From a virus, in the IMG/VR virus record IMGVR_UViG_3300032053_000480, positions 1 to 25,056 of that record: DNA of 25,056 bases. One strand, 5' to 3'. This document shows positions 1 through 22,961 of the stretch, one piece after another. The position numbers and the translations under genes were made by a program. The notes below the pieces were generated by a model. That model had not been told where the DNA came from and searched no databases. It saw only the letters and a list, made by a program, of their open reading frames with translations. Position 1 is the stretch's first letter, and the number at the start of each line of letters is the position of its first letter.

Positions 1-1
1 C

Positions 2-553
2 TATCGGTCGTCGAGACACAGAGTCTTCATGCCCTGGCGGTACTTTTTCGTGAAGGTGCCGTCCCGGGGCGTCATCCGCGGCGCGGAGAACCTCTATGTC
101 TTCTTCGCCGACGAGCGCGCCGAGACATTCGACAGTCCCGTTCTGCGGCACAGCTACCTGCCCAACATCTACAATTCCGGCGGCATCTGCATGGGCAACA
201 GCGTGAGCTATGCCTCGGGGAGCCCGCTTCGGAGCATCATCCGTTTTCTCCGGGAGTTCTACAGGATGCGGGGCAATTACTGGTTGACGTACGCGATACC
301 GAAACCGTTCACCGGGTACTCTAAGGCCTGCCCGTCATGCCCCGGTTCCGACTCCGACGTGTCTCCCATATGCGCCTGGAGCCAGCAGTCTCCGGACAAC
401 CTGAAGGGCATCTGGTTCTCATGCAACTATCCGTCCATCAATGCAGCCCTGGATAATCTCGGGTTCAACTACGCCCAGAGAACCGTCTGGAACGACAACA
501 CGGTGGACAGGCGGTTGCAGATATTAGGAGTCCAAGATGCCTCCAATCGCTGA
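2..553 (+). CDS. E2-like (PRTRC protein B / Prok-E2_D-like) protein, copy a, partial at left edge
   Basis: The frame is open to the window edge. Residues just before the first in-window Met (at 29) match the equivalent part of the next gene (HRVFMPWRYFF against YRLFFPWHYFF), so the true start lies outside the window. The key motif is LPNIYNSGGICM, with Cys54 counted from the Met at 29. Spacing is the same as the eukaryotic ubiquitin-conjugating-enzyme HPN...C signature, with His replaced by Leu. It is homologous to the products of 537-1169 and 2481-3335. Prokaryotic E2-like proteins of this kind occur in PRTRC cassettes next to ThiF/E1, JAB and ubiquitin-like genes, as here. Inferred role: carrying the ubiquitin-like protein as a thioester on Cys54. 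Its C-terminal half, with CPSCPGSD, has no clear match in the next copy. The end overlaps the next gene by 17 nt. Confidence 0.7.
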   Translation, partial: YRSSRHRVFMPWRYFFVKVPSRGVIRGAENLYVFFADERAETFDSPVLRHSYLPNIYNSGGICMGNSVSYASGSPLRSIIRFLREFYRMRGNYWLTYAIPKPFTGYSKACPSCPGSDSDVSPICAWSQQSPDNLKGIWFSCNYPSINAALDNLGFNYAQRTVWNDNTVDRRLQILGVQDASNR

Positions 554-1169
554 CCTGAGAGTGAAAAAGAGGAGATTTCCAGACCCTGTCTGGGACGGGC
601 CGGGGAAGAGGATACGGCACGTCGTGATCCACGAAAAAGAACGATATGCCGTCTATGCCGTCGAGATGCCCGAAGGGCCGAGAACGATCTCGTACGCCCA
701 TACGCCCTACAGGCTCTTCTTTCCTTGGCATTACTTCTTCATCAAGGTCCGCTGGCTCGAGGCTCCGGTCGTCCCGAGCGACGCGGGCGCCTACGTGTTC
801 TTCGCCAAGAGGCAAGCCGCGTCGATCGACGACAAGGTGCTCCGCCGTCCGTTCCTCCCGAACCTCTTTGCCGAGACGGGCATCTGCCTCGACCACATGC
901 GACTCTTTTCCCGGAGGACCGCAAAGGAGACGCTCGGGGATTTCGTCCGCTGGTTCTATCGATCGAACGGAAGCTCCTTCTTCGAGAAATACGAGCCCAA
1001 AGGACATGAGCAGAATTTTTCCTTCAATCGATGGGCCGCCATGTCCGAGAAGGAGGCAAAGGCCTTGCAATGGCCGAAGGCGACATACCCTTCGATCCGG
1101 GAAGCGGCGGAGAACCTGAACTTCAAGTACTGGGAGAGGAGCAAGCCCTGGCAACGAGTCGATTTTTAG
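537..1169 (+). CDS. E2-like (PRTRC protein B / Prok-E2_D-like) protein, copy b
   Basis: 210 aa. The ATG at 537 follows an AGGAG at 525-529 and overlaps the end of the previous gene, suggesting translational coupling. The E2-like core runs from about residue 58 (YRLFFPWHYFFIKV) to LPNLFAETGICLDH at 108-120. The candidate catalytic Cys is C117, seven residues after the Asn of the LPN motif, as in classical E2 enzymes. The His of HPN is Leu. After the Cys comes a helical stretch (TLGDFVRWFYRSNG) that aligns with LRSIIRFLREFYRMRG of copy a. Seen: clear paralogy and Cys conservation. Known: this motif marks E2 folds. Inferred: Ubl transfer activity. An inactive structural role is possible because the flanking residues diverge from copy a. 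Confidence 0.72.
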   Translation: MPPIADLRVKKRRFPDPVWDGPGKRIRHVVIHEKERYAVYAVEMPEGPRTISYAHTPYRLFFPWHYFFIKVRWLEAPVVPSDAGAYVFFAKRQAASIDDKVLRRPFLPNLFAETGICLDHMRLFSRRTAKETLGDFVRWFYRSNGSSFFEKYEPKGHEQNFSFNRWAAMSEKEAKALQWPKATYPSIREAAENLNFKYWERSKPWQRVDF

Positions 1170-1172
1170 ATC

Positions 1173-1177
1173 GGAGG
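1173..1177 (+). promoter_or_regulatory. Shine-Dalgarno deciding the TTG start of the reverse transcriptase
   Basis: GGAGG five bases before the TTG at 1183. No ATG is available nearby in frame, so this site supports the TTG start. Only 13 nt separate the end of the E2-like gene from the RT start, which leaves no room for a retron RNA upstream of the RT. Confidence 0.6.
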
Positions 1178-1182
1178 ACGTC

Positions 1183-2115
1183 TTGGAACTTTCGCTCTAC
1201 AGGGTAATACGGATACCCAAAGGAGATGGGCGTCTTCGGATCATCCACGCCCCGAATGACGCTCTCAAGGAGAAACAGAGGACTTACCTCGAAAACGAGA
1301 GGAGGACGGGCATACGCTTCCCGAGAAGGATCACCGCGTTCCTCAGGAAACGGGGGATCCGGGAGGCGGCGGCGCCGCACGTCGGCAAGTCCTTCGTGGT
1401 GGGGATCGACATCAAGGATTTCTTCCATCACGTGACCCCGGGACATGTCCTGCGGGCCATGCAGTTCGACAGGCTTCTCCCGGGGGAGATCGAGACCCGT
1501 ACAGAATCCCTGAAGGAGCGCGACTGGAAGCGCGCCGTCCCCCCGATCGGGCTCATGGACCTTGCGTTCATTCCTTCTCCGCGGGAGCCTGGAGAGTATT
1601 GTCTTCCCCAAGGAAGCCCGCTCTCCCCGTTCCTGGCGGCATGGGTCTCGAAGGCGATCGACTTCAAGATCGCCAAGATGATCCGGAACCAGAAGATCGA
1701 CGCGGTCCATACGATCTACGCCGACGGGATCTTCGTCTCTTCGGACGACCGGCGAGTCATCCCCATGGCGATCCACGGCGTCGAGCGGATCCTGGCCTCG
1801 GAAGGGTTCCAGGTGAACCGGAAGAAACTCAAGGTCATGAGGAGGAGCGTGTCCCAGCGGGTCTGTGGAGTTGTAGTGAACGAGCATCTCACGGTGCCGA
1901 AGGCGAAACGGCATGAGATCCGCGGACGGCTCCACAACCTCTACATGGATGCCAAGGCCGACAAGGGAGTCGACATCAAGGAGTTCAACTACGTCCAGGG
2001 CTACATGGCCTTCGCCGGCCATCTGGATCCGCCCTGGGCGGAACGTCTGGAACCGCAGCTCAGATACGTCCGACTGTATCTCTTTCAACACACATCCCTC
2101 CCGAAGGAGGAATGA
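1183..2115 (+). CDS. Retron-type reverse transcriptase with altered hallmark motifs
   Basis: 310 aa, TTG start. Order of motifs: RT1 around residues 6-30 (YRVIRIPKGDGRLRII), the retron X-region position as AAAPHVGK, motif A as GIDIKDFF, motif B as LPQGSPLSP, motif C as YADG, and the retron C-terminal signature as RVCGVVVN followed by a basic helical region. By recalled comparison with the Ec86 retron RT the order and spacing match throughout, but about 50 N-terminal residues are missing. Three hallmarks are changed: NAxxH is AAAPH, YADD is YADG, and VTG is VCG. Loss of the second Asp of YxDD normally impairs reverse transcriptases, so activity is uncertain. It lies between two E2-like genes and is followed by a structured non-coding stretch. 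The SP (not SQ) motif and the lack of a repeat pair argue against a diversity-generating element. Confidence 0.88.
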   Translation: MELSLYRVIRIPKGDGRLRIIHAPNDALKEKQRTYLENERRTGIRFPRRITAFLRKRGIREAAAPHVGKSFVVGIDIKDFFHHVTPGHVLRAMQFDRLLPGEIETRTESLKERDWKRAVPPIGLMDLAFIPSPREPGEYCLPQGSPLSPFLAAWVSKAIDFKIAKMIRNQKIDAVHTIYADGIFVSSDDRRVIPMAIHGVERILASEGFQVNRKKLKVMRRSVSQRVCGVVVNEHLTVPKAKRHEIRGRLHNLYMDAKADKGVDIKEFNYVQGYMAFAGHLDPPWAERLEPQLRYVRLYLFQHTSLPKEE

Positions 2116-2119
2116 AGAA

Positions 2120-2231
2120 CGCTCTCCCCTACGGGTTTTACCCGGACGGGAATTCGTCCGGAACCAGGTAACCTTGTTGTCAGAGAGCGAGTAAATTGTA
2201 CCACTCGTCTGTTGGAAATCAAAGTGGTACA
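2120..2231 (+). other. Structured 3' leader after the RT gene (hairpins)
   Basis: No gene is supported from 2116 to 2480. The first part holds a 7-bp long-range pair (2120-2126 with 2183-2189) enclosing a 7-bp hairpin (2142-2148 with 2155-2161), then a perfect 9-bp hairpin (2197-2205 with 2223-2231, 17-nt loop). No U-tract follows either hairpin, so they are not ordinary intrinsic terminators. They may belong to the RNA element that follows or protect the RT mRNA 3' end. Confidence 0.45.
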
Positions 2232-2260
2232 CATTCCGAACGAGGATTTAGAGAGTGGTC

Positions 2261-2452
2261 GGGATGGCTGGGTGCGTGTTCCTAGGAATGACAACCTTAG
2301 GAGAAAGGCGGGCGGAACGTTCGCCAGAACAATAAGTACCCCCGGGTGATGATACGGCCTACCGGACCTTGGAGTCCGATGACCTCACTCGGATGTCGCT
2401 GGGCCATCGGACTCCAGGGTCCTATCGGCCTTGCTCGGGCACCCAGCCTCCC
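2261..2452 (+). ncRNA. Retron-like msr-msd RNA candidate, downstream of the RT
   Basis: The outer ends pair: 2261-2275 with 2439-2452, 14 bp with one bulged T at 2265, ten of them continuous (GGCTGGGTGC with GCACCCAGCC). This resembles the a1/a2 stem of retron RNAs. Inside, near the 5' end, are two small hairpins (2280-2284 with 2298-2302, and 2311-2316 with 2320-2325), as in an msr. Then comes one long hairpin, 2356-2381 with 2405-2430: 22 Watson-Crick pairs, one G-T and three mismatches in 26 positions, with a 23-nt loop, as in an msd. Retron RNAs normally lie before the RT gene, so the downstream position is unusual. Alternatives are a leader or attenuator for the next E2-like gene. No covariation or expression data are available here. 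Confidence 0.45.
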
Positions 2453-2455
2453 AAC

Positions 2456-2480
2456 CCTCTTTTTATCAGAGGAGAATTTT
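2456..2480 (+). promoter_or_regulatory. Hairpin overlapping the RBS of the third E2-like gene
   Basis: CCTCT at 2456-2460 can pair with AGAGG at 2468-2472, which forms the start of the AGAGGAG ribosome binding site for the ATG at 2481. The stem is only 5 bp with a U-rich 7-nt loop, so any masking of the RBS would be weak. It lies right after the retron-like element. Confidence 0.3.
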
Positions 2481-3335
2481 ATGGAAGACAAGGCGATCGT
2501 GTTTTACCAGGGACGCGCCTACAACGTGCGCATCTCGATCGAGGCTTCGACCCCGGTCGAAGAGGCCGTCAAGATCTTCGACGAGATGTCGGAGACGCGG
2601 CTCACGATCATTCCGCACGGCGAGGTCTTCTGCGCCGGGTTCGCGAAGTTCGAGGACAGGAAGTTCTTCCTCATGTACTTCCCGCCCAAGCGGCGGCGGC
2701 TGCTCTGGAAGAACAAGCTCACCCAGGAGAAGAAGGAGTTCATCGTCTTCTGGCCGCACTTCTACATCGGGATCTTCTTCCGTGGAGGCGCCATCGAGAA
2801 CGGATACGGCATGGTCTCCAGGAAGAGGCTCGAGAAGCCCAGCGACAAACTGGGGCGGCTTCCCATGCCCAACCTCTCGAAGAAGTTCGGGCACATTTGT
2901 GAGGGCCGCGAAGGGAAGTGGGATATCCGGTCCCGCGCCGAAGACACGGCCGTGAAGTATGCGGAGTACTTCATGAACTCCGAGTTCATCTCGGACATCA
3001 ACGACCACTTCCCTTCCGTGCCGAAGCAGTTCTGGCCGCCCAGCTGGGACCTCAAGCGTCCCATCGGCGAGAGTTCCATCGAGGACGTCAACCAGTCCGT
3101 CATCGCGCTCTGGCAGGCCCTTTCGGAGAAGGATCCCAAGGCGATCGAAGAGACGGTCGAATGGCCTGAGACGTTCACGATCGGCGACCTCGTGCTCAAC
3201 GAATGGAAGGGCAAGGTGTCGGTCGGCGGCAACCCGATCTCGAATGCCGACCTCGGGGACGTGGTCATGAACCAGATCCTCGCCCCGATCCAGCCGCAGG
3301 TCGTCCAGTTCAATCCTGCTCACCTACACCAATAG
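2481..3335 (+). CDS. E2-like (PRTRC protein B / Prok-E2_D-like) protein, copy c
   Basis: 284 aa. The ATG at 2481 is preceded by AGAGGAG, while the longer in-frame extension would start inside the structured RNA. The core (FWPHFYIGIFF, then LPMPNLSKKFGHICEG) gives candidate Cys140. The His of HPN is Met, and there is one more residue between PN and Cys than in copies a and b. The following AEYFMNSEFISDIN resembles the PRTRC protein B pattern of an aromatic helix then S-x-F. Of the three copies this one looks most like stand-alone PRTRC B proteins, and it lies directly upstream of the JAB, E1 and Ubl genes. Residues after about 200 form an acidic C-terminal extension of unknown role. E2 fold assignment is by motif recognition; activity is inferred. 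Confidence 0.7.
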   Translation: MEDKAIVFYQGRAYNVRISIEASTPVEEAVKIFDEMSETRLTIIPHGEVFCAGFAKFEDRKFFLMYFPPKRRRLLWKNKLTQEKKEFIVFWPHFYIGIFFRGGAIENGYGMVSRKRLEKPSDKLGRLPMPNLSKKFGHICEGREGKWDIRSRAEDTAVKYAEYFMNSEFISDINDHFPSVPKQFWPPSWDLKRPIGESSIEDVNQSVIALWQALSEKDPKAIEETVEWPETFTIGDLVLNEWKGKVSVGGNPISNADLGDVVMNQILAPIQPQVVQFNPAHLHQ

Positions 3336-3344
3336 GAGGTGCCC

Positions 3345-3647
3345 ATGGACACCACGCACCCGCCATACATCGTGGAGAAACCTGACGCCTCCGCGACGAA
3401 TCAGCAGATCTTTTCGAGCCTCTGGAGCGGCATCCGGGCGAAGACGGGAACGGCCAAAAGCCCCATCGTTGCCGGCATCCTCCAGAACCCGGAGATCGTG
3501 ACGAACAGCGGTCTCCGGCAGGAGGTGATGAGCCTCGTCTTCCGCTCGCTCGTGAAACTCGGATTCGCGGGGACCGGTAAGGGGGCAAGAATGGAGAGCC
3601 TCTTCGCGAGGTTGCTCAAGGAAAAACAGGAAGGAGGAGACATCTGA
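3345..3647 (+). CDS. Small protein of unknown function between E2-like and JAB genes
   Basis: 100 aa. The ATG at 3345 is chosen over the GTG at 3339 because AGGAGG (3334-3339) then has normal spacing. I do not recognise the family. The N-terminal 30 residues are polar and Pro-rich; the rest looks helical (QEVMSLVFRSLVKLGF, then ARMESLFARLLKEK), with a short Gly/Lys-rich break. There is no Cys, signal peptide or membrane segment. The stop overlaps the next start (TGATG), so it is probably made together with the JAB protein. It could be an accessory subunit of the conjugation complex, by position only. Confidence 0.75.
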   Translation: MDTTHPPYIVEKPDASATNQQIFSSLWSGIRAKTGTAKSPIVAGILQNPEIVTNSGLRQEVMSLVFRSLVKLGFAGTGKGARMESLFARLLKEKQEGGDI

Positions 3648-5335
3648 TGGCTAGATTCATCGTCGCGCCGAACGGCATCTTCGAGTACCACAAGAGCGAC
3701 CTCTTCGAAGGTCTTCTCAAGATCGAGTTCCCTTTTCCCATCCAGAAGGAGATCGATACTTTCGATCCGCCGAGCGAAAAAGAGCTCGATCAGGAGTTGG
3801 GCCTGATCTTCAACAGGATGCCGCTCTCGGTCTTCCAGCAGGCGCTCACTTTCATGGAGGCGGTCTGGAAGAAGGACAAGGTGGAAGTGGTCGTCCTTTT
3901 CCGCTACATCGACGGGAAATGGGAGAACTTCGTCCCCCTCCAGTGGAATGGGATGGCCAGCACCTGCTACCATCCCGAGCTCTCCCCCAAGGAGGCGACC
4001 CGGGTCGCCGGAGACATGCATCTCCACCCCATCAAGGACGACGGCAAAAAGAGCGGGAGCTTCCACTCCTCCACAGATCACCACGACGAGAAGAAGAACG
4101 AAGGGATCTTCGTGGTAGTGTCGGGCTTCACCCCTTTCACGTGCTACCCGGACGTCATCGGCGTCGTCCGCGGCAAGCGCTTCCCGCTCAAGTTCGAGAG
4201 TCTTGTCGATGCGACGAAGTACGATCCGAAGCCGACCTTCCCTCCCGAGTGGATGGAGCGGGTCAAGTTCCTTCCCTGCGACGGCTGTCGTCCGAAGGTC
4301 ATCACCACCACGACCACCTATGCGGGCGGATCCGCTTCGAAGAGCGAGAATGGCTCTCGGCTCGTTCCCGTGAAGGACATCGCCGAGTGGCGTTCGAAGC
4401 TGCCTAAAGACAAGACGCCGAACAGCCAGCGCTTCAAGGACTTCTACACCCTGTGGAAGGACAAGACCCACCAGGGCACCCTCTTCAAGTGCGACAACAA
4501 TGGGTGCCTTGCGCACTTCGAAATGCCCGAGTGCCCGAAGTGCCACAAGGTCATTCTCCAGACGGTCATCGTCGAATCGATCGCGCTCATGATCGACGAG
4601 ATCGACTGCTGGAGGAGCATGGAAAGGGAGAAGGTCCAGAAGCAGGACGAGACGGCAACGGCGCCCATGGCGGCAATTCCAGGGCCCGTGGAGGCCGCTT
4701 CCAGTACGACGCCCGAGGCGAACGCCTCCGACAAGGAGGGCGACTTCCTCCTCGTGTACACAGGAGGAGGCACCTGCAATGAGGACTGCCCCTACAAGGC
4801 GTTCGTCCACAACCATGTGGGCGGGACGGAGGCCCTCGAAAAGATCCTCAAGGATTTCTCCGGTCCCAGGCCCCAGATCCTGTGCAAGATGAAGGAGGGC
4901 TGCCTCTGCCCTGGATCAGAGAAGTGCAAGAACAAGTGCGCTCTCGAGGGTCTCAAGGCCGAAGAGATCCCCATCTGTCCCAGCGGCTCGTGCGCGGCAG
5001 GCGGGCACAAGTGGATGAACTGCAAGGTCAGGGAGCTCCGCGAGAAGGTCTTCTTTCCTCCATCCACGGGAAGCGACTTGATCAGGAGCTCGCTTCCCGA
5101 AGGCGTGAAGTCCGTCCTGTACTGCGGCGACGCCGAATGCGAGAAGGCGAATCACGATCCGTTGACCTGCCCGATCAAGGGACTCGGGATGAAGAACCTC
5201 CCGATCGTCATCTCGGCCATCCACAGCACCTGCTACGAGACGTGCGTCTTCAAGGGAAGGCCCCACGAACACTGCGAGTTCCACGAGTCTCTGGTTCCGC
5301 TCATCGAAGGCATGAAAGACGCCCATGTGGGCTGA
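3647..5335 (+). CDS. JAB/JAMM metalloprotease fused to a C-terminal zinc-knuckle array
   Basis: 562 aa, start overlapping the previous stop. The N-terminal JAB domain has MHLHP (His125, His127) and SSTD (Ser141 to Asp144), the JAMM zinc signature. Six more residues than usual separate His127 from Asp144, and Glu80 is a possible catalytic Glu. JAB proteins of this kind cleave ubiquitin-like proteins from targets or trim their C-termini. Then come C211-x2-C214 and a zinc ribbon (C282, C287, C296, C299). A linker rich in Ala/Pro/Thr (334-362) leads to a C-terminal array: CX3CX6HXH at 377-390, a Cys-rich piece at 413-431, CX4CX4HX4C at 444-459 and again at 493-508, and CX3CX6HXHC at 529-543. I know no named family with this array. 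It could bind substrate or act like a RING-type adaptor; both ideas are inference. Confidence 0.82.
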   Translation: MARFIVAPNGIFEYHKSDLFEGLLKIEFPFPIQKEIDTFDPPSEKELDQELGLIFNRMPLSVFQQALTFMEAVWKKDKVEVVVLFRYIDGKWENFVPLQWNGMASTCYHPELSPKEATRVAGDMHLHPIKDDGKKSGSFHSSTDHHDEKKNEGIFVVVSGFTPFTCYPDVIGVVRGKRFPLKFESLVDATKYDPKPTFPPEWMERVKFLPCDGCRPKVITTTTTYAGGSASKSENGSRLVPVKDIAEWRSKLPKDKTPNSQRFKDFYTLWKDKTHQGTLFKCDNNGCLAHFEMPECPKCHKVILQTVIVESIALMIDEIDCWRSMEREKVQKQDETATAPMAAIPGPVEAASSTTPEANASDKEGDFLLVYTGGGTCNEDCPYKAFVHNHVGGTEALEKILKDFSGPRPQILCKMKEGCLCPGSEKCKNKCALEGLKAEEIPICPSGSCAAGGHKWMNCKVRELREKVFFPPSTGSDLIRSSLPEGVKSVLYCGDAECEKANHDPLTCPIKGLGMKNLPIVISAIHSTCYETCVFKGRPHEHCEFHESLVPLIEGMKDAHVG

Positions 5336-5349
5336 AAGGAGGCGCTTTA

Positions 5350-6081
5350 ATGGAAGGACGTCTTCCCTTCGAGCAGACGGTGATCGTCGGGCTCGGGGGG
5401 ATCACGGCCCATCTCTATGTTCCCATCGGGGAGCTTCTCGTCCATTCGGGGGTTCTTCCGAAGAGCGTCGTGCTCATCGACGGGGACGACTTCTCGGAGC
5501 GGAACCTGGGCCGGCAGGGGATAAGCCGTCAGGACCTGGGCAAGAAGAAAGCCGAGGTCTATGCCCAGAGGATGGGAAAACGCTTCCCGGATCTCTCCGT
5601 GAGAAGCTATCCCGAGTTCCTCGTTCCGAAGAACGTGGAGGAGTTCATTCCACCGGGGTCGATCGTCATCTCGGCCGTCGACAACCACGCGACGCGCCTC
5701 CTCATCTCGAAGAGGATCCAGACGTTCAAGGACACCCTCCTCGTTTCTGGAGGCAATGAGATCTGGGACGGGAATGCCCAGATCTATGTGAAGGCGGATG
5801 GACGCCCCAGGACGAAGCCCATCGAAGCCGTCCATTCCGAGATCGCCGAGCCCAAGGACAAGAATCCCGGCGAGATGAGCTGCGAGGAGCGGCTCGCGAT
5901 GCCGGGGGGCGAGCAGGTTCTCGCCACGAACATGATGGTGGCCGCCTACATGGTGGCCCTGTTCCAGGACGTGGTCGGGGCCTGGCCCGACTGGTCAAAC
6001 GGAAAGGAGGTGAGGAAAGTCGGGGAAGTGATGTTCGACACCCGTGAGTATATCGCGGCCGGCTATGTCCGTTCCGTGTGA
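5350..6081 (+). CDS. ThiF/E1-like ubiquitin-activating protein (PRTRC ThiF-like)
   Basis: 243 aa, ATG at 5350 after GGAGG. The Rossmann nucleotide-binding loop is VGLGGITA (13-20). Asp44 ends the second strand (VLIDGDDF), and ERNLGRQG (50-57) matches the E1/ThiF/MoeB pattern SNLxRQ. SAVDNHATR (108-116) supplies the conserved Asp. A single candidate catalytic Cys is C178 in EMSCEERLA, and the following QVLATNMMVAAYMV is typical of PRTRC-type ThiF proteins. The zinc-binding CxxC pairs of MoeB/ThiF are absent. Known chemistry: adenylation of a beta-grasp protein C-terminus, then transfer to a Cys. Likely partner: the 77-aa protein encoded next. Cytoplasmic; no targeting signal. Confidence 0.88.
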   Translation: MEGRLPFEQTVIVGLGGITAHLYVPIGELLVHSGVLPKSVVLIDGDDFSERNLGRQGISRQDLGKKKAEVYAQRMGKRFPDLSVRSYPEFLVPKNVEEFIPPGSIVISAVDNHATRLLISKRIQTFKDTLLVSGGNEIWDGNAQIYVKADGRPRTKPIEAVHSEIAEPKDKNPGEMSCEERLAMPGGEQVLATNMMVAAYMVALFQDVVGAWPDWSNGKEVRKVGEVMFDTREYIAAGYVRSV

Positions 6082-6098
6082 CTCTCGGGCGCAGTTTT

Positions 6099-6118
6099 CC
6101 TGAGAAACGTTTCTTAGG
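6099..6118 (+). terminator. Hairpin between E1-like and Ubl genes, possible weak terminator
   Basis: A 20-nt near-perfect inverted repeat (CCTGAGAAACGTTTCTTAGG) can form an 8-bp stem with one G-T pair and an ACGT loop. A T6 run follows at 6125-6130, six bases after the stem, so termination would be partial at best. It could also be a palindromic operator. It separates the Ubl gene from the E1 gene by 60 nt, whereas the gaps among the genes from 2481 to 6081 are at most 14 nt. Confidence 0.4.
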
Positions 6119-6141
6119 TCCCTATTTTTTGTGGAGGCACC

Positions 6142-6375
6142 ATGGAAGCGCAGGTTCGTTGCGGTCCGCGCGCCGTCGCCGCCGGCCCTCAGTGGGTCGG
6201 CAAGACCGTGAGTGAGCTGCGGAAGCTCCTCGCCCGGGATCTCCAGATCCCGGCGGGGACGGCGGCCGTCATCTCGCGGTTCGGGGCCCCGGGCGACCCG
6301 GTGAGCGATGACTATCGTCTCACCGACGGGGACCTGCTGGAGTTCACCCGCCCCGCGGGGGCCAAGGGCTTCTAG
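6142..6375 (+). CDS. Ubiquitin-like beta-grasp protein (PRTRC protein C-like)
   Basis: 77 aa, ATG at 6142 after GGAGG. The layout fits a minimal beta-grasp fold: an N-terminal strand, WVGKTVSELRKLLARDLQI as the turn and main helix, a central strand (AAVISRFG), then DDYRLTDGDLLEFTRPAG, in which the L-x-D-G-D turn and last strand resemble ThiS/MoaD/Prok_Ub proteins. It ends in AGAKGF, not GG. Known: E1-like enzymes adenylate the C-terminus of such proteins. Inferred: it is the modifier handled by the adjacent E1, E2-like and JAB proteins, and loss of the final Phe would expose a Gly. Hairpins on both sides may set its expression apart from the rest of the operon. Confidence 0.75.
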   Translation: MEAQVRCGPRAVAAGPQWVGKTVSELRKLLARDLQIPAGTAAVISRFGAPGDPVSDDYRLTDGDLLEFTRPAGAKGF

Positions 6376-6404
6376 TCTCGTAGAAGTCCGCAACGAATGA
6401 TGGG

Positions 6405-6462
6405 GAAGGGGGGCCGGAATGATCCCGTAGATCTTCCGGCCCCCTCTTCACCTAAGAGGGGG
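6405..6462 (+). promoter_or_regulatory. Two mutually exclusive stem-loops after the Ubl gene
   Basis: Hairpin A pairs 6409-6419 with 6434-6444 (11 bp, GGGGGCCGGAA with its complement). Hairpin B pairs 6440-6448 with 6454-6462 (9 bp, CCCCCTCTT with AAGAGGGGG, 5-nt loop). They share 6440-6444 and cannot both form fully. There is no T-run after hairpin B, so a classical attenuator is not shown. A transcript-end processing signal or translational switch for the gene at 6497 is possible. Confidence 0.45.
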
Positions 6463-6496
6463 CGAAAAATTTAACTTTGAAAACGAGGAGGTTCCC

Positions 6497-7360
6497 ATGA
6501 GCGAGGAAATGACCGCGAAAGAAACGAAGGAAGCGATGCTGAACGATCTGAAGGTGGTTGAAGAGCGGGTAAAGGTGAACGAGGAAAAGCCGGTTGAAGA
6601 GCCGAAGGTGGAGAAGCCGCCCGAGAAGGGTTTCAACGAGCTCGTCGTCGGCAAGCACGTCGGGCTCGCCTGCTTGTGCGAGGGGTTCGTCTCCCATGTC
6701 CAGATGACGGAAAACGAGGAGGATCGCTGGTTCGCCATGGTCTTCACCACGGGGGGCTGTGGGAAGAAGAACTACCGCCACTTCTACGGGGAGAGGTTCC
6801 CGCTCCAGAAGAGCATATTCCGGGCGGACGTCTTCTATCGCACCTTCCCGTTCAAGGAGACCCCGGCGCCCGAGTGGTTCCGTAACCTCGAAGAGGGACC
6901 CGTGAATGCCGATGACCGGCGCTATATCGCGGTCTCGGTCAAGAGCGCGGCAGCAGTGATGGAGATGAACTTCGTCATCCCGGGCCGAGGCCTGGAGCCC
7001 AACGTCTATGCCGTGGCGACGGAGCTCCGCGAGGAGTTCGGACCCGAGCGTATCACCGTCCAGGTCTTCGATCGTTCAAGCTTCGAGGAGGCGATCCAGC
7101 ACGCCAGGGCTTGCCGGAGTGCGGGCTCCTTATTGTCGAAAAGGCTATCCATTGAGGAGCGGAACTCGGAGGCGCTTGCGGACTGGATCATCGCCATGTT
7201 TCTCCAGCTTCCGCCGGCATGCTCGATATCCCCGCAGGGGAAAAGCCCGCTTTCGGCCGATGCGCTTACCCTCGTCCTCAAGAGGGTTCAGACCCACCCG
7301 GCCTACAGGGGCCACACCGTCAAAGTCACCTCGTGCGATGGGAAAACCATTACGCTGTGA
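6497..7360 (+). CDS. Protein of unknown function in the Ubl cluster
   Basis: 287 aa, ATG at 6497 after GAGGAGG. Not recognised. Residues 1-45 are very acidic and Lys/Pro-rich (MSEEMTAKETKEAML, then repeated EEP/VEKPP), probably a disordered tail. A compact region follows with LACLCEG, TTGGCGKKNYRHFYGERFP and an aromatic-rich strand/loop part. The C-terminal half (residues about 140-287) looks alpha/beta, with PERITVQVFD and a helical bundle ending in GHTVKVTSCDGKTITL. Several Cys are present but no CxxC zinc pair pattern. It lies between the Ubl gene and the tandem RadC/JAB gene, so a part in the same pathway is likely by position. No function is assigned. Confidence 0.8.
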   Translation: MSEEMTAKETKEAMLNDLKVVEERVKVNEEKPVEEPKVEKPPEKGFNELVVGKHVGLACLCEGFVSHVQMTENEEDRWFAMVFTTGGCGKKNYRHFYGERFPLQKSIFRADVFYRTFPFKETPAPEWFRNLEEGPVNADDRRYIAVSVKSAAAVMEMNFVIPGRGLEPNVYAVATELREEFGPERITVQVFDRSSFEEAIQHARACRSAGSLLSKRLSIEERNSEALADWIIAMFLQLPPACSISPQGKSPLSADALTLVLKRVQTHPAYRGHTVKVTSCDGKTITL

Positions 7361-7376
7361 ATGGGGAGATACGTTG

Positions 7377-8381
7377 ATGGAATACAGGATCGGAACCCAG
7401 AAGTTCAAGAAGCCCGTTCCGCTCAAGGGCCCGAAAGACGCGATCGAGCTGGTCAAAGGACTCGGCCAGGCGGAGATCGAGGTCATGACGGTCCTTCATG
7501 TCACGCCCGATCTCAAGGCGATCGAAGCGGAAACCGTCGGGCTTGGATCGATGATGTCCGTCGCCGTGGAGTCGAGAAGCATCTTTCGCAGCGCCGTCCT
7601 GAGCGACCAGGAGAGATGCCTGATCGAGGTCCATAATCACGCCTTTCAGAGGAAGGCGGAGCCGTCCATAGAAGACCGCGAACATATGAGCCTTCTGCGC
7701 TCGGCCGGGCTCCTCCTCGGGATACCCGTCCTGGACTCGATCATCCTCGGGACGAAAGAGCACTTTTCTTCGCTCGAGCAGGGGTTTGTCTATCCCAAGT
7801 GTGACGCCTACCCCGGAGGGACAAAGCTCGCGTTTGCCAAGGCGCATAAGTTCCCGAGCGCCAAACCGGAGATCATCACTCCGGGCGACCTGGGGCCGAT
7901 TTCGGCGCCCAAGATGGCGGTTCCGCATCTCGAGTTTCTTCGCAAGATGAAATTCGAGGCGACGGCCGTGATCCGTCTTACCCCTGATCTTGAGCCCACC
8001 GCCATCGAAGTCTTCCGGTCGAGTTTCGAAGACAACCAACGGGAGGAAACGCGCGACATCCTCAGGCGTGTCATTGCATCCCCATCGACCAAGTACATCA
8101 TCCTGGCAAACAACCATCGGTGCTTCCCGGGACGAATGTACTCCGTGGATGCTCTTAGTCAGCACCTGTATCAGCTCCGCTTCGGAGGAATCAGCCTTTG
8201 TACCCCGGTCATTGACATGCTCGAGATCGAGCCAAAAGGCTACTACTCTTGGACGGAGCACGGTCAGGTCTTCAACAGGTCCAAGTTCTACTCGTTCGCC
8301 GAGGCGGAAAGCATCAAGGTCAAGGGGCCTTCCAAGACGAACCGCCCGGACATCCCGCCCTATGCCTGGATCATTCGCTGA
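7377..8381 (+). CDS. Tandem RadC-like JAB domain protein, second domain degenerate
   Basis: 334 aa, ATG at 7377 after GGGGAG. Domain 1 (about 33-130) matches the RadC/JAB pattern: E35, VHNHAFQRKAEPSIED with His87, His89, Ser97 and Asp100 (H-x-H-x10-D spacing exact), then AGLLLGIPVLDSIILG as in RadC proteins. Domain 2 (about 190-285) repeats the layout (VIRLTPDLEPTAIEVF, then ANNHRCFPGRMYSVD). There the first His is Asn245 and the Ser position is Tyr255, so it has probably lost metal binding. RadC-family domains belong to the JAMM superfamily; their substrates are poorly known. With the JAB at 3647 this gives the cluster a second potential isopeptidase. Domain 2 may bind the modifier instead of cutting it. 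Confidence 0.8.
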   Translation: MEYRIGTQKFKKPVPLKGPKDAIELVKGLGQAEIEVMTVLHVTPDLKAIEAETVGLGSMMSVAVESRSIFRSAVLSDQERCLIEVHNHAFQRKAEPSIEDREHMSLLRSAGLLLGIPVLDSIILGTKEHFSSLEQGFVYPKCDAYPGGTKLAFAKAHKFPSAKPEIITPGDLGPISAPKMAVPHLEFLRKMKFEATAVIRLTPDLEPTAIEVFRSSFEDNQREETRDILRRVIASPSTKYIILANNHRCFPGRMYSVDALSQHLYQLRFGGISLCTPVIDMLEIEPKGYYSWTEHGQVFNRSKFYSFAEAESIKVKGPSKTNRPDIPPYAWIIR

Positions 8382-8391
8382 GGAGAAAAAG

Positions 8392-8919
8392 ATGGACAAA
8401 CCCGAGAAGAAGAAAGCGGAACCGGAACCGGAAGAGGAGAAGTACTGGATCTACGAAGGAGAGCGGCGCCCTGTCGTCGTGCAGGCCAAGAACGCGCGCC
8501 ATGCCGTCCACAAGGTCTCCCAGAGCTCCGAGTACGACGGCTTCCCCATCTACGTCACCTCCGTCGAAGACTTCGCCCGAAGGTGCCAGGGAGCGAAGCC
8601 GAAGGAGGGGCGCAATGAAGCGCCTCCGCTGGCGGAATCGATCTTTCTCATAGCATCCATGAAGAAGGACAAACCGGAACTTCGTCTCGAGATCGCGCGA
8701 AACATGGAAGAGGGCCTCTCGTCCATGAAGGTCATGATCGAGGTTTTCAGGCTCCAGCTGGTCGCCCTGTTCGAGATCCATCCCGGCTTGAAGAAACCCA
8801 TATGCCATAGGATGCATATGGACGGCGAGCCCGTCGCCATCAAGACCATGAACGCCAAGACCATGAAGGATCGCGATCCCTTGGAAGGGACGGAGTTTTT
8901 CGATGGTGACGAAAGTTGA
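8392..8919 (+). CDS. Conserved-looking phage protein of unknown function
   Basis: 175 aa, ATG at 8392 after GAGGAG. The start is an acidic/basic repeat (KPEKKKAEPEPEEEK). WIYEGERRPVVVQAKNARHAVHKV then suggests a small beta-alpha domain. The C-terminal half (residues about 75-145) looks helical and ends in a polar tail. No catalytic motif, Cys pair or membrane segment was found. It follows the RadC-like gene by 10 nt and so probably shares its transcript. Confidence 0.75.
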   Translation: MDKPEKKKAEPEPEEEKYWIYEGERRPVVVQAKNARHAVHKVSQSSEYDGFPIYVTSVEDFARRCQGAKPKEGRNEAPPLAESIFLIASMKKDKPELRLEIARNMEEGLSSMKVMIEVFRLQLVALFEIHPGLKKPICHRMHMDGEPVAIKTMNAKTMKDRDPLEGTEFFDGDES

Positions 8920-8930
8920 GAGGAACGAAG

Positions 8931-9245
8931 ATGCGTAATTTCAATGCCAAGTCGGCCGTCCTCACGGTCCTGGCCCTTCACGGGATCGCCGGGGCGCTCT
9001 ATGGTCTCGGCCTCTTCTGGAAGTGGCAGACGCTGCTCATCACGCATTCCATCCTCGATAAGATCGACGGAAAGACGTGTCAACATGCCTTGGCCGAACA
9101 CATCGCGAAGGTAGTCCTGACTACGACGGCGGAGATCGCCACCTTGTTCCTGCTTCTCTTGTTCGGATTCGTTATCTGGAAAGGTATCAATTCACTCTAC
9201 GCGAATATCGACGACTGGCTCAAGTCCAGAAAGGAGGCTCGATGA
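8931..9245 (+). CDS. Small membrane protein with two transmembrane helices
   Basis: 104 aa, ATG at 8931. Two hydrophobic segments are visible: residues about 10-30 (SAVLTVLALHGIAGALYGLG) and about 66-86 (AEIATLFLLLLFGFVIWKGI). Between them is a 30-residue polar loop with one Cys, and the C-terminus is basic. By the positive-inside rule both ends (N-terminal R/K, C-terminal KSRKEAR) would face the cytoplasm. The stop overlaps the next ATG (ATGA). The function is unknown; holin-like topology is not supported by any lysis gene nearby. Confidence 0.75.
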   Translation: MRNFNAKSAVLTVLALHGIAGALYGLGLFWKWQTLLITHSILDKIDGKTCQHALAEHIAKVVLTTTAEIATLFLLLLFGFVIWKGINSLYANIDDWLKSRKEAR

Positions 9246-10114: not shown

Positions 10115-11746
10115 ATGAGGTTCATGACCAATCCGGTTGATCGTTTTCTCAAGTCGATTCCGAAGGTCCTCAAGGAAGAAGAAGCCATCAAGGTTTATCA
10201 GGGCTTGGTCGGCGCAAAGGACGAATGGGAGCGGCCATTCAACACGGATGGCGTCTTCTTGGAAACGCTGTATGAATCCAAAGAAGTACTTAGGCCAAAC
10301 GATTCAGCGGCCGTCTTGGCGCAGATCTGCTATTACTTGCGGCTTTTCAAGCTGATCGGCGTCTACAAGGACCGTCTCCATCCCATGCCACTTCGGGTCG
10401 CGGGCATCGCCAAGAACGCTGCCTTCGTGACGGAGGTCTGCTCGCTTGACCGCCACTTCAGTTCCAATGAGTACGACTGGACACGTCCCCCATCAAGTCC
10501 GGATCCCAAGCTCGTCAAGGCGCTGGCCTCTGAGCGCGTTTTCATCCACGACATGTCAAAAGCGGAAGGCGTACAAGCCTTCCTTGAAGCGCTCAAGGCG
10601 GCTGCAAGCCCGGTCAAGCAGTTCATCACGCGGAACAACTTCGACCGGATCTTTATAGTCTGGAAGAAGAACTTCGGCCAGGATCTTGACCCGCAGGATT
10701 CCGCTCATGCTTTTCTCTACGACCTTCAGAACAAGAAATACGTGAACGAGGCCAACGGAAGCATCGTCTTCGGGCCTCCTAAAGGCCCCATGATCGAGGC
10801 CAGGTGTCCTGTGGAATTCTATAAGCTATTCTGGAAGACCTATAGCCTTCCGCCAGAGAATAAAGAGCTTATGGCCATTATCGCGGCCAAGGACCGTCTC
10901 GTGGCCATGCAGATGCGCCGCGAGACGGGCGAGTTCTTCACGCCGGTCGACATCGCCGTTAGGTGGTCCTATCACATGATCGTCCATGCCCCTCCGGACG
11001 ACCCGGAGAAAAGCGCGGATTGGAGTCTATGGGATCCTGCCTGTGGCACTGGCAATCTCACGCTTGGGTGTTCGCCTATGCCCGGGCGGCTTTTCATGTC
11101 CACGCTCAATCCGCAAGACGTGGCGGCCGTCAAACAGTCGGGGCAGAACCCGGAAGCGCTCGTCTTTGCGTACGACTTTCTGAATCAGACGGATGAGGAG
11201 TTGCCTGCCGAGATCAGAAAGAAGCTCGTGCCCGGCAACAAGTGGATCTTCTTCTTCAATCCGCCGTTTGCGGCCGGGGTCGGCGGGAATCTCTTGGGCG
11301 GTGAAGACGAAGTGCGCCGGGAGATGTCCGACACGCGGATCGGCGACGAGATGGAAAGCGAGAAGCTGGGACACGCCTGTCAGAACCTTTATGCGCAGTT
11401 CATGTACCGTGTCATGAAGATGGCCGAAAGGTATGGATTACAGGTCTATGTTGGCTTTTATTCGATGGCGACGTATGCAACGGGTCCCGGATACGACAAG
11501 TTCCGGGAGATGTTGGAAAGCGCTTTTGCTCCGGTCAACGCTTTTGTTTGCCATTGCTTGGAGTTCGAGTCTGCCAAGGGGGCATGGCCAGTACTCTTCT
11601 CTCTCTGGAAGCGAAAGGAAGGTGCGGATGTTCGAGATCAAGGCAAAGGTGCTCGTGCGGGACAAGACCGGCGAGATGGTATGCATAGGAACGAAAATCT
11701 TCAGGCCCGCCCAAAAGCCGCTGTCCGAGTGGGTCGAAAGGCCTAA
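10115..11746 (+). CDS. N6-adenine DNA methyltransferase, catalytic part (frame-split)
   Basis: 543 aa from the ATG at 10115 (GGGGGA upstream); the TTG at 10097 is an alternative. Residues 1-250 are an uncharacterised N-terminal region. RRETGEFFTP (269-277) and DPACGTGN (307-314, motif I, SAM binding) with NPPF (382-385, catalytic motif IV) identify an N6-adenine methylase of the type I/IIG class. The last credible residues are WPVLFSLWKRKEG (about 491-503). The remaining 40 residues overlap the next frame and look like out-of-frame sequence. The natural C-terminal continuation appears to be the overlapping product from 11628. It sits in a cassette bounded by 23-bp repeats and looks less GC-rich than its neighbours, which suggests acquisition. 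It may protect phage DNA from host restriction. Confidence 0.82.
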   Translation: MRFMTNPVDRFLKSIPKVLKEEEAIKVYQGLVGAKDEWERPFNTDGVFLETLYESKEVLRPNDSAAVLAQICYYLRLFKLIGVYKDRLHPMPLRVAGIAKNAAFVTEVCSLDRHFSSNEYDWTRPPSSPDPKLVKALASERVFIHDMSKAEGVQAFLEALKAAASPVKQFITRNNFDRIFIVWKKNFGQDLDPQDSAHAFLYDLQNKKYVNEANGSIVFGPPKGPMIEARCPVEFYKLFWKTYSLPPENKELMAIIAAKDRLVAMQMRRETGEFFTPVDIAVRWSYHMIVHAPPDDPEKSADWSLWDPACGTGNLTLGCSPMPGRLFMSTLNPQDVAAVKQSGQNPEALVFAYDFLNQTDEELPAEIRKKLVPGNKWIFFFNPPFAAGVGGNLLGGEDEVRREMSDTRIGDEMESEKLGHACQNLYAQFMYRVMKMAERYGLQVYVGFYSMATYATGPGYDKFREMLESAFAPVNAFVCHCLEFESAKGAWPVLFSLWKRKEGADVRDQGKGARAGQDRRDGMHRNENLQARPKAAVRVGRKA

Positions 11747-18667: not shown

Positions 18668-21600
18668 TTACTTCAGGAGCTGTCTTGCGTATTCGCGGAT
18701 GGAGAGGGGATCGGGCACCCGCCGCACGACGGGCTTCCCGTCGGAAGGAACGAGCGCCCGGTAAAGGCCCGCGAACTTCTCGATCGCCTGATCCATGTCG
18801 GGTTCCAGGCTGGAGTTCCTGAGGACATACGCCGGGTGGAGGCACGCCACGACCTTGACCCCCTTGAGGTTCTTGACGGTGGCGTTCGCCTTCGTGATCG
18901 TCCCCTGCCCGCCGAGCTTCTGCCAGGCCCGTCGGCCGAGCGCCAGGATGAGGGGCGGCTGGATGATCTCCAGCTCCTTCGCGAGCCAGGGGCACTCTTT
19001 GGAGAGCTTCTCGATCTCGAGCACGGTCATGACCCCCTCTTCCCCCTTCGGGGTGAAGGGAGGCGCGCACTTGGATCCGTTGCTATACGTGAACTCCTTG
19101 CCCGAGAGCCCGAAGCGCGCCAGGGCCTGGTCGAGCTTCCTTCCGGATTTTCCAATGAATGGCCTACCTCCCTTGTCCTCTTCCCAGCCGGGCGCCTCGC
19201 CGATGATCATGACATTGGTGCGGCCGAGCTCGGGCGGGACGGGATGCTTGCAATATTCGCGGAAGTCGCACCCCCCGCAGTTCTTGATCTCGTCGATGAG
19301 ATCCGTCATGGACTTCTTCACGAAGGTCCGGTCGACGAGGACGGGGAAGTTGAAGGTGAACCCCGGCATCCTTCCCGAGAAGAGCGCCTCGGGAAGCCCG
19401 GGCGGTACGATCCTCTTCTTCATCCGCTTGGCGAAGTCCTGGGCATCTACAAGGGGTGCCTTCTCGCGGAGATCGAAGACGGCCTTGGCCAGACGGAGAT
19501 CGATGCCGTCGACCATCGTGAGCGGCATTCGGATCCCGTCCGGCCCCTTCTCCCACCGGAGCGTGGAACGGTTCGGGTCGGGCGGGAGAACCTTGATCCC
19601 GAACTTCGGGATCTCCGAGAGGATCGGCTCGAAGTTCTCCTCGGCATTGAGCATCGCGGTAAAGGCCTCGACCGGATGATGCCGCTTGGCCCAGGCGATG
19701 TAGTAACCGTTTGCACTGTAAGCAGTTGCGTGGGCTTTATTGAAACTATACCGTCCGAAGCTAGAGAGCGTATCCCAAAGAACTGCAGCATCCTCGGCCG
19801 GCCAGCCCGAAGTACGGACGCAGCCTTCGATGAACTTGGGGGCATACTTCTCGAGTTCCTTGGGACCTTTCGACTTCGAGATGATCTTACGGATCTGGTC
19901 GGCCTCGGTCCAAGAGAACCCGGCCAGGTCGGCACAGACGTGCATCACCTCTTCCTGATAGACGATGATGGCCCCGGGGTCTTCGTGGTACTTCTTGGCC
20001 AGACCCGCAGGGTCCATTTGCCCAAGGCCGCCGGGGCGGAAGGCGGCGTTCGCCCAGACCAGGTCTTCGAACTTCGTAGGCTTGAGCATTCGGATGAACG
20101 ACCTCATTCCGGGAGACAGGAACTGCGGCACGCCGGCCGTGAGCCCGTCGGAGAAGTCCTTGAAGACCGCCGCATCGTCGAGCGGGATGGACGCGAGATC
20201 CAGGTTGAGATCGTTCCTGATCGTCTTGATGACCGACAGGGTGTCGAGCCCGAGGAAGTCGATCTTGATGAAGCCGAGCTCCTCGGCGACTTCCATGTCC
20301 CAGCAGAGGGCCTTGCCCTTCCCCCGGCTGACGATCGCCGAGCGTCCTCCCAGGAGGGTATCCGCAGCGATCACGAAGCCCCCGGCGTGCGCCCCGTACT
20401 GGCGTACCTTGCCGACAAGGCGGCGGGCGAACTCGGCGGCGTCGGGACTCTTCCTGGCTAACTCCTTCCCGGGAGGGATGTCCGTGATGTCGTACTCGCT
20501 CTTCTCCTTGCCCTTGAGGAAGTCCTTGTCGTCCTCGAACCTGGAGACGTCCTCGAGCTGGACGCCATAGGCGCGGGCGGCGTCGTGGATCGCAAGACGG
20601 AGCCCGAAGTCGATGTAGTTGGAGATCTGGGCGACCCGGTCGTCTCCGAACTCCTTGCGGAGGACGACGGGGACGCGCTCGCGGAACGCTTCGTCAACGT
20701 CCAGGTCAATATCTGGCCAATTTTTCCTGCCCGGCGCGTAGAACCTCTCGTAGGAGAGTCCGTGCCTGATCGGGTCGATGGGGGTGATCCCCATGCAGTA
20801 GGCCACGAGGGATCCCCCGACCGACCCGCGCGGGCCCATTTCGGCCCCTTCCTTGTGAAACAGATCCACGCAGTGCTTCACGAGAAGCAGGTACCTGTCG
20901 ATCTTGGCCTCCTTGAAAGTGGCCAATTCCTTATTGAGTCTGTCTTCATAGTCTGGGCGGCCACTAAGTCCCTTGTCCTCAAGACCTTGCCGCGAAATAA
21001 GCTCCATATCCCCCTGGACCGTGGGGATCTCCGGAGATGGTAGATCATTCCAACCCCAGGCCGTAATGCGATCGCTGACGCGTCCAGTAGCCTCCAGGGC
21101 GCGTTGGGCGGCCTCGGGAGGTATGCCGGCCCGTTCCAAGTCTTCCACGGCCGTCCTGGGGCTTCCTACGAAGGTTCTCTTGGTGGAGAAGCGCCGGACG
21201 TTGGGGTCGTGGATCGACTTGCGATCCGCGACGGCCAGAAGGGCCTCATGGAACCGCTGGTCTTCAGGGGCCGCGAAGTGGCAGTCAGTGGTCACGACCA
21301 TCTCGACTCCCATGGACTGGGAGATCTCGCAGATCGTCCTGTTGAGGTTGTGCTGGGCCTCCATGTCATGGAGAGGCATGACCTCCAGGAAGAAGTCGTC
21401 CTTGAAGCGGTCGACGAAGGCCGCCAGGTCATCGGGCGCGGCGTCCGTCCCGCGCCAGAAGGCGCCGCCGGCACATCCCGACATGACGACACACTCTTCC
21501 AACTCCTCGAGCACCAAGCGGATAGGAAGGACGGCCTTCTGCCGCCGAGCATCGTAGCAGTCGCGGTGGGCGATCGAGAGGAGCCTGAGGATCGAGGAGA

Positions 21601-21895
21601 AGCCCTTTCCGTTCTTGGCCAGGGCCGTCAGGTGACGGATCTTCTCGCCCTTCTTGTAGACCCCCCAGGTGTAGGTGTCGGGGCAGCCCACATAAAGCTC
21701 GATCCCCGCTATCCCCTTGATGCCCAGCTTCTTGGCGGCCTTGAGGAACTTGGGCACGCCTTCGATGCCGCCGTGGTCGGTGATCGCGACGGCGCCCCAG
21801 CCATAGTCGGCCGCGATCTTGGGAAGCTCGTCCGCCCGCAGAAGAGAGTCACGGACGGAGTATTCGCTATGACAGTGCAAAAGACTGGGCGTCAT
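18668..21895 (-). CDS. DnaE-type (C-family) DNA polymerase fused to family-4 uracil-DNA glycosylase
   Basis: 1075 aa. PHP domain 1-270 (LHCHSEYS, AITDHGG, AGIELYVG intact). Polymerase palm with catalytic Asp395 and Asp397 (PDIDLDVDEAF) and Asp546 (KIDFLGLDTL), then EEVMHVCADLAGF and FNKAHATAY as in bacterial DnaE. There is no recognisable OB or tau-binding region. Residues 870-1050 instead form a uracil-DNA glycosylase: CGGC (873-876), GEAPGWEED (899-907), GRPFIGKSGRKLD, C943, C968 (the four Fe-S cysteines of family 4), ALGRRAW and HPAYVLRN (1020-1027). The fusion probably couples replication with uracil removal or uracil detection. Being one uninterrupted frame, it is not an assembly artefact of two genes unless a stop was lost. 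It follows the ParB/MT-A70 gene by 4 nt. Confidence 0.92.
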   Translation of the reverse strand: MTPSLLHCHSEYSVRDSLLRADELPKIAADYGWGAVAITDHGGIEGVPKFLKAAKKLGIKGIAGIELYVGCPDTYTWGVYKKGEKIRHLTALAKNGKGFSSILRLLSIAHRDCYDARRQKAVLPIRLVLEELEECVVMSGCAGGAFWRGTDAAPDDLAAFVDRFKDDFFLEVMPLHDMEAQHNLNRTICEISQSMGVEMVVTTDCHFAAPEDQRFHEALLAVADRKSIHDPNVRRFSTKRTFVGSPRTAVEDLERAGIPPEAAQRALEATGRVSDRITAWGWNDLPSPEIPTVQGDMELISRQGLEDKGLSGRPDYEDRLNKELATFKEAKIDRYLLLVKHCVDLFHKEGAEMGPRGSVGGSLVAYCMGITPIDPIRHGLSYERFYAPGRKNWPDIDLDVDEAFRERVPVVLRKEFGDDRVAQISNYIDFGLRLAIHDAARAYGVQLEDVSRFEDDKDFLKGKEKSEYDITDIPPGKELARKSPDAAEFARRLVGKVRQYGAHAGGFVIAADTLLGGRSAIVSRGKGKALCWDMEVAEELGFIKIDFLGLDTLSVIKTIRNDLNLDLASIPLDDAAVFKDFSDGLTAGVPQFLSPGMRSFIRMLKPTKFEDLVWANAAFRPGGLGQMDPAGLAKKYHEDPGAIIVYQEEVMHVCADLAGFSWTEADQIRKIISKSKGPKELEKYAPKFIEGCVRTSGWPAEDAAVLWDTLSSFGRYSFNKAHATAYSANGYYIAWAKRHHPVEAFTAMLNAEENFEPILSEIPKFGIKVLPPDPNRSTLRWEKGPDGIRMPLTMVDGIDLRLAKAVFDLREKAPLVDAQDFAKRMKKRIVPPGLPEALFSGRMPGFTFNFPVLVDRTFVKKSMTDLIDEIKNCGGCDFREYCKHPVPPELGRTNVMIIGEAPGWEEDKGGRPFIGKSGRKLDQALARFGLSGKEFTYSNGSKCAPPFTPKGEEGVMTVLEIEKLSKECPWLAKELEIIQPPLILALGRRAWQKLGGQGTITKANATVKNLKGVKVVACLHPAYVLRNSSLEPDMDQAIEKFAGLYRALVPSDGKPVVRRVPDPLSIREYARQLLK

Positions 21896-22928: not shown

Positions 22929-22961
22929 TCGGTCTTCCTCCTTCAACGTGGCCTCCGATCA

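Follow-up and report, generated by a model that had tools for sequence, protein, structure and literature searches.

CBASS type II systems, with their Cap2 and Cap3 proteins, and the Bil-type systems of bacterial ubiquitin-like (Ubl) conjugation follow an E1-E2-JAB logic. The same logic is found in the locus described here, which lies in a window of 25,056 bases that makes up an entire IMG/VR record. In contrast to CBASS and Bil, the window encodes separate E1 and E2 proteins and an explicit Ubl gene and has no cGAS-like enzyme; neither hallmark of CBASS type II, the cGAS-like nucleotidyltransferase or the fused E1-E2 Cap2, appears among the window proteins scanned.

A second comparison is offered by the PRTRC cassettes of plasmids and ICEs. 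The E1 and E2 proteins of the window are homologous to PRTRC_ThiF and PRTRC_B, its JAB is probably homologous to PRTRC_A, and its Ubl occupies a role equivalent to that of PRTRC_C. However, its scores fall far under the curated cut-offs, and it has extra E2s, a RadC protein, a reverse transcriptase (RT) and a non-coding RNA (ncRNA). The window ThiF reaches 48.9 bits against TIGR03736, for which the cut-off is 144.75, while the JAB gives no direct match to the PRTRC_A model TIGR03735, against which its relatives score 33-52 bits (cut-off 101.8). An E2 of the Prok-E2_D/PRTRC_B kind, with the conserved Cys, was recognised by way of a profile from other loci, and some of the source loci pass or approach PF14460. 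The PRTRC resemblance pointed out in the first-pass annotation holds only in part: every PRTRC cut-off lies above what the window attains.

Retrons (Ec86, Ec78/St85 and type XIII in PADLOC) have in common with the window the sequence family of the RT and, as its predicted fold suggests, an RNA with closing inverted repeats and a long hairpin. While the standard retron order places the RNA before the RT (PMC6868368), the candidate RNA of the window lies 3' of the RT and not 5', the RT carries YADG, and the neighbours are Ubl-conjugation genes, with no known effector. Phage-encoded Ubl and JAB proteins also occur as TAPI and TAPK of lambda-type tails (PMC1779556), but E1 and E2 are missing there, whereas the window has a full cascade beside replication genes. 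In the openly accessible literature we found no description of a link between retrons and Ubl cassettes.

We consider it probable that the cassette forms one operon and functional unit, in which a complete Ubl conjugation pathway (E1, Ubl, three E2s, JAB and RadC-JAB) is combined with a retron-like RT and its RNA. This reading builds on observed gene families, conserved catalytic motifs, an RNA fold and a recurrent linkage.

Gene content of the tagging cassette

The cassette occupies the left part of the window, positions 2-8381, where ten genes, all on the + strand, are accompanied by a 365-nt gap. Every gene named in the first-pass annotation is an open frame on this strand within these limits. 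The right part carries a phage-like replication module, with DNA polymerase III alpha, RecA, a gp32-like SSB, a helicase, HNH and methylase-like genes, which agrees with the phage replication genome proposed earlier. A full tagging and untagging gene set in a phage-like contig is supported. Two composite genes were noted on the - strand: 18668-21895 encodes, in a single frame, a DNA polymerase III alpha subunit whose C-terminal domain is a uracil-DNA glycosylase (PF03167, 1e-22), and 21900-22946 encodes a ParB N-terminal domain fused with an MT-A70-type methyltransferase domain. When viral contigs were scanned with single proteins (E1, RT and polymerase) and with an alignment of the two sequences A and B, no relatives were returned, so that this collection yielded no close kin of the window. 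The conjugation genes and their neighbours are as follows; L163 is a bacterial locus discussed below.

2-553, + strand: E2-like protein A, with LPNIYNSGGIC; leave-out E2 HMM 1.8e-10; 5' end truncated by the contig start
537-1169, + strand: E2-like protein B, with LPNLFAETGIC; leave-out E2 HMM 2.5e-14
2481-3335, + strand: E2-like protein C, with MPNLSKKFGHIC; leave-out E2 HMM 9.9e-17; top VIA-align rows are E2 enzymes
3345-3647, + strand: small protein D, 100 aa; matches the small gene of L163 by position, not by sequence
3647-5335, + strand: PRTRC_A-like JAB/JAMM peptidase with a Cys-rich C-terminal half; leave-out JAB HMM 2.3e-25
5350-6081, + strand: E1/ThiF-like activating enzyme with conserved Cys178; PF00899 2e-24 and alignment; sister to the L163 E1 (99/95)
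6142-6375, + strand: ubiquitin-like protein ending in AGAKGF; leave-out Ubl HMM 1.4e-13, alignment and ubiquitin-like fold
6497-7360, + strand: protein F, between Ubl and RadC; no family detected
7377-8381, + strand: double RadC-like JAB protein; PF04002 1.5e-19; L163 has a homologue in the corresponding position

Pfam recognises only the E1, the RT and RadC in the cassette and by itself misses the E2s, the Ubl and the JAB; leave-out profiles for these three families were therefore built from other loci only, with zero window sequences. The E2 profile, with E-values computed at Z=10000 over the 218 ORFs of the window, matches exactly three of them, A, B and C. Protein A is a paralogue of B (34% identical) and reaches E 0.083 against Prok-E2_D directly, under the Pfam cut-off; a Pfam search of the window record finds no Prok-E2_D, and the E2s surfaced only through profiles from relatives. 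They are Prok-E2_D-like, and in an alignment of 26 E2 homologues neither the Cys nor the PN-motif Asn varies. In the AlphaFold model of C, the nearest structural neighbours by VIA-align are E2/UBC enzymes, at middling Z (up to 5.7), while Foldseek gives no significant match of this model to the PDB. The leave-out profile, the invariant residues and the middling structural match of C together bear out the three E2-like proteins.

The remaining conjugation proteins retain their motifs. The JAB has a complete, aligned HxH...S..D..D motif with a six-residue insertion, and Cys178 of the E1 is invariant among the aligned E1 relatives. The AlphaFold model of the Ubl resembles ubiquitin-like domains (Foldseek probability 1.00, E 1.2e-3), and its tail is of the AGxKG type. 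In the RadC-JAB, the HNHx..PS.ED motif is present in the first half (as HNH...PSIED) and the second half is degenerate. Protein D shows no sequence similarity to the small protein of L163. The profile scores listed above, with the motifs and the ubiquitin-like model, uphold what had been read from the letters of the DNA, namely a ThiF/E1 with Cys178, a 77-aa beta-grasp Ubl, a JAB protease and a RadC-like JAB; the structure predictions recommended at that stage came out on the same side for the Ubl and, at middling Z, for C.

E1, Ubl, E2 and JAB are thus all present with catalytic motifs, as a Ubl conjugation cascade requires. In such a cascade the JAB would trim the Ubl to its ...AGAKG end, and the E1 would adenylate the Ubl and hold it at Cys178. 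From there at least one of the E2s would hand the Ubl over to proteins of the phage, the host or a competitor, and JAB/RadC could take it off again.

A defence-type module borne by the phage, PRTRC-, CBASS- or Bil-like, would use this tagging to inactivate the proteins of competing phages. Retrons are defence systems (PMC12548924), and one published account ties bacterial Ubl-like conjugation to anti-phage defence (PMC10097602). However, the window contains no known effector or cGAS gene, and the cassette proteins match nothing in PADLOC except retron RT and E1-E2 models; we therefore entertain a defence module with some doubt. Our preferred reading, a single operon of conjugation genes with RT and RNA, leads to the two elements treated next.

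The reverse transcriptase and the RNA beside it

The RT was treated as an oddity in the first-pass annotation, but it is a key feature of the locus. The YADG motif of the RT and a structured ncRNA at 2251-2465 go beyond what was described there. The features of this part are as follows.

1183-2115, + strand: retron-type reverse transcriptase, motif 5 YADG (usual YADD); RVT_1 (PF00078) 2.2e-17
2251-2275, + strand: candidate a1 arm, closing stem, from the fold; pairs with 2439-2460
2279-2325, + strand: two short hairpins (2279-2303 and 2307-2325), candidate msr, from the fold
2356-2430, + strand: long hairpin, candidate msd, from the fold; z -3.6 for 2345-2440
2439-2465, + strand: candidate a2 arm (2439-2460), then a T run; from fold and sequence

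The retron character of the RT is borne out by several comparisons. It matches retron_St85 at 3.4e-38, under the cut-off, its best PADLOC retron model is RT_XIII (8.8e-47), and its matches among solved structures in the PDB are retron or retron-family RTs. It belongs to the retron lineage, yet for each named retron type its score stays under the cut-off. We rejected the RT as that of a group II intron or a DRT, as retron models and structures score far better.

The RNA element, of about 230 nt, is non-coding and lies 3' of the RT, in the gap before the gene for protein C, with a retron-like anatomy. The region 2236-2480 folds at z -7.2 relative to shuffles, while 30 segments sampled over positions 1-9000 reach no lower than -2.9, and its long-range closing duplex was equalled by none of 500 shuffles. 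According to single-sequence folding, the structure of the candidate fits an msr-msd RNA with a1/a2 repeats. Neither the window nor five cassette loci gave any match to Rfam, retron families included, a search for tRNAs found none, and no close homologues of the window ncRNA were found. An ncRNA between RT and E2 was seen only in the window and in L163, where the gap folds at z -4.5 and has an a1/a2-type closing stem (4/500 shuffles as good). In L048, L076, L022 and the L049 family, a clear a1/a2 RNA beside the RT was not definable. Other strongly structured stretches, which we do not claim as retron RNAs, are a 232-nt stretch directly 5' of the RT in L299 (z -6.6) and two long, extremely structured non-coding stretches 3' of the Ubl, in L290 (15150-15880, z -8.3) and in L315 (15340-16650, z -10.5, with a repeated GC-rich hairpin); none of the three has an Rfam or tRNA match.

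The second Asp of YADD is missing from the window RT, and with it an intact catalytic YxDD, so that DNA synthesis may be lost. The RT could then be a non-catalytic RNA-binding scaffold, and the RNA, with no DNA made from it, a regulator or terminator inside the operon. The YCDN motif of the L299 RT is of the same tendency, and the a2 arm followed by a T run is like an intrinsic terminator. However, YADD is kept in L163, L290, L319, L274, L048 and the L061 family, with YSDD in L315, and an element of 230 nt with msr/msd-like hairpins exceeds the needs of a terminator. We therefore regard a scaffold as unlikely.

Under the single-operon reading, the RT would bind the RNA encoded beside it and possibly reverse-transcribe it. 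The resulting complex would regulate or steer the conjugation enzymes and act most directly on the E2 next to it; it might, for instance, sense a competing phage or the defence of the host.

Recurrence of the core and of its link to reverse transcriptases

Two scans by E1 alignment identified the E2-JAB-E1-Ubl core in about 150 other viral loci. The E2 adjoins the JAB and E1 in nearly all of them, and in many the Ubl follows directly after the E1 and has an AGxKG end. Several loci carry multiple E2 genes, four in L014 and three in L130, L015, L156 and L150/151. Because of these loci, neither the core nor E2 triplication is unique: large phages carry the tagging core widely, and triplication is not exceptional. 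The co-occurrence in other phage genomes that had been proposed as a check is thus found, while the earlier remark that three E2 copies are unusual is weak, given cassette loci with two to four. In another locus, L008, a tandem protein (10704-11663) consists of two SAP/Rho_N-like plus Ubl units and is a possible polyubiquitin-like precursor.

The link to an RT is rarer. Among 100 cassette-bearing virus records, RVT_1 gave 14 matches in 13 records; in 8 of these 13 (one lineage counted several times) it lies within about 6 kb of the E1, and in two it is directly adjacent. No match fell in the batch of 50 close-relative records, and 37 of the 50 records in the other batch are without an RT.

Searches with the RT alone approached the question from the other side. 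In bacterial genomes, the best of 80 retained loci was L163, from a Candidatus Omnitrophota assembly, and it was the only one of the 80 with E2, JAB and Ubl. Its order (RT, structured gap, E2, small gene, JAB, E1, Ubl, RadC) is the same as that of the window. The L163 contig also carries TrwB-like, Replic_Relax and integrase genes and so looks like a mobile element; among 285 Omnitrophota genomes, no further copies were found beyond the known one. The same mobile element has a second E1-like gene adjoining a 705-aa protein of no known kind (L248, 15608-18000).

In viral contigs, cassette-type genes were found within 10 kb of the RT in 21 of 80 loci and in 10 of 34 RT clusters, although for five of the 21 loci these profiles match only an E1-like gene, or E1 and JAB. 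Of the 50 other RT records, by contrast, only 8 contain an E1-like gene at any position, mostly short ThiF-like frames. Four loci, L290, L299, L315 and L319, show the order RT, E2, JAB, E1, Ubl with overlapping RT and E2 frames, the Ubl of L290 being assigned only from its place and its sequence. One phage family has about 4-7 kb, with reversed genes, between the RT and the E1, and in some records with both, such as L063, RT and cassette are far apart. Among the genes next to the RT, the E2 is the most constant. L280, L308 and L332, from a different phage group, have in a row a JAB-like gene recognised by eye, an E1 that belongs to another subfamily and a retron-like RT. The search for the gene order in other genomes, also suggested at first pass, thus shows that other phages and one mobile element of bacteria also pair an RT with a Ubl cassette, and that most Ubl cassettes are without an RT.

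Phylogenetic trees agree with a changing association. The cassette RTs cluster on the RT tree (0/500 shuffles as low). The window RT, on a long branch, groups with those of L290, L299, L315 and L319 at moderate support (94/73), whereas an earlier tree with fewer viral RTs had joined it to the L049 family (96/77), so that its exact place is unsure. On the E1 tree the window and L163 are sisters, with the support given above, and L290, L299, L315 and L319 form a separate group. At least four gains or losses of the RT label are needed on this tree, and the link therefore seems to have been gained or lost several times.

That the Ubl cassette is a phage pathway sufficient in itself, with the retron as unrelated cargo settled in the same accessory region, would suit the many cassette records lacking an RT (50/50 close relatives, 37/50 others) and the distant pairs such as L063, but we hold it to be quite improbable in view of the RT preceding E2-JAB-E1-Ubl in the window, L163, L290, L299, L315 and L319, of the overlapping frames in four of these, and of the cassettes reached from the RT alone in 10 of 34 clusters.

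Possible coupling of a retron to protein tagging

The favoured single operon, with RT and conjugation genes as one functional unit, suggests a pairing, previously unlinked, of two machineries that are familiar mostly for their part in phage defence. From it we infer the activities of the encoded proteins, a coupling between RT and E2, and a role in phage competition or counter-defence. More tentatively, the locus could represent a new class of system, present in large phages and in an element of conjugative type, whose Ubl conjugation cascade would be licensed or directed by a retron-type RT together with its RNA (or RT-DNA).

Work on retrons has so far been separate from work on bacterial Ubl-like conjugation. 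An operon that recurs and joins both, in phages and not in their hosts, would raise the question of whether reverse-transcribed DNA, or its RNA, controls protein tagging. It would make the neighbouring E2 a candidate retron partner, and it would point to phages using, on their own side, machinery that is best known as part of bacterial defence.
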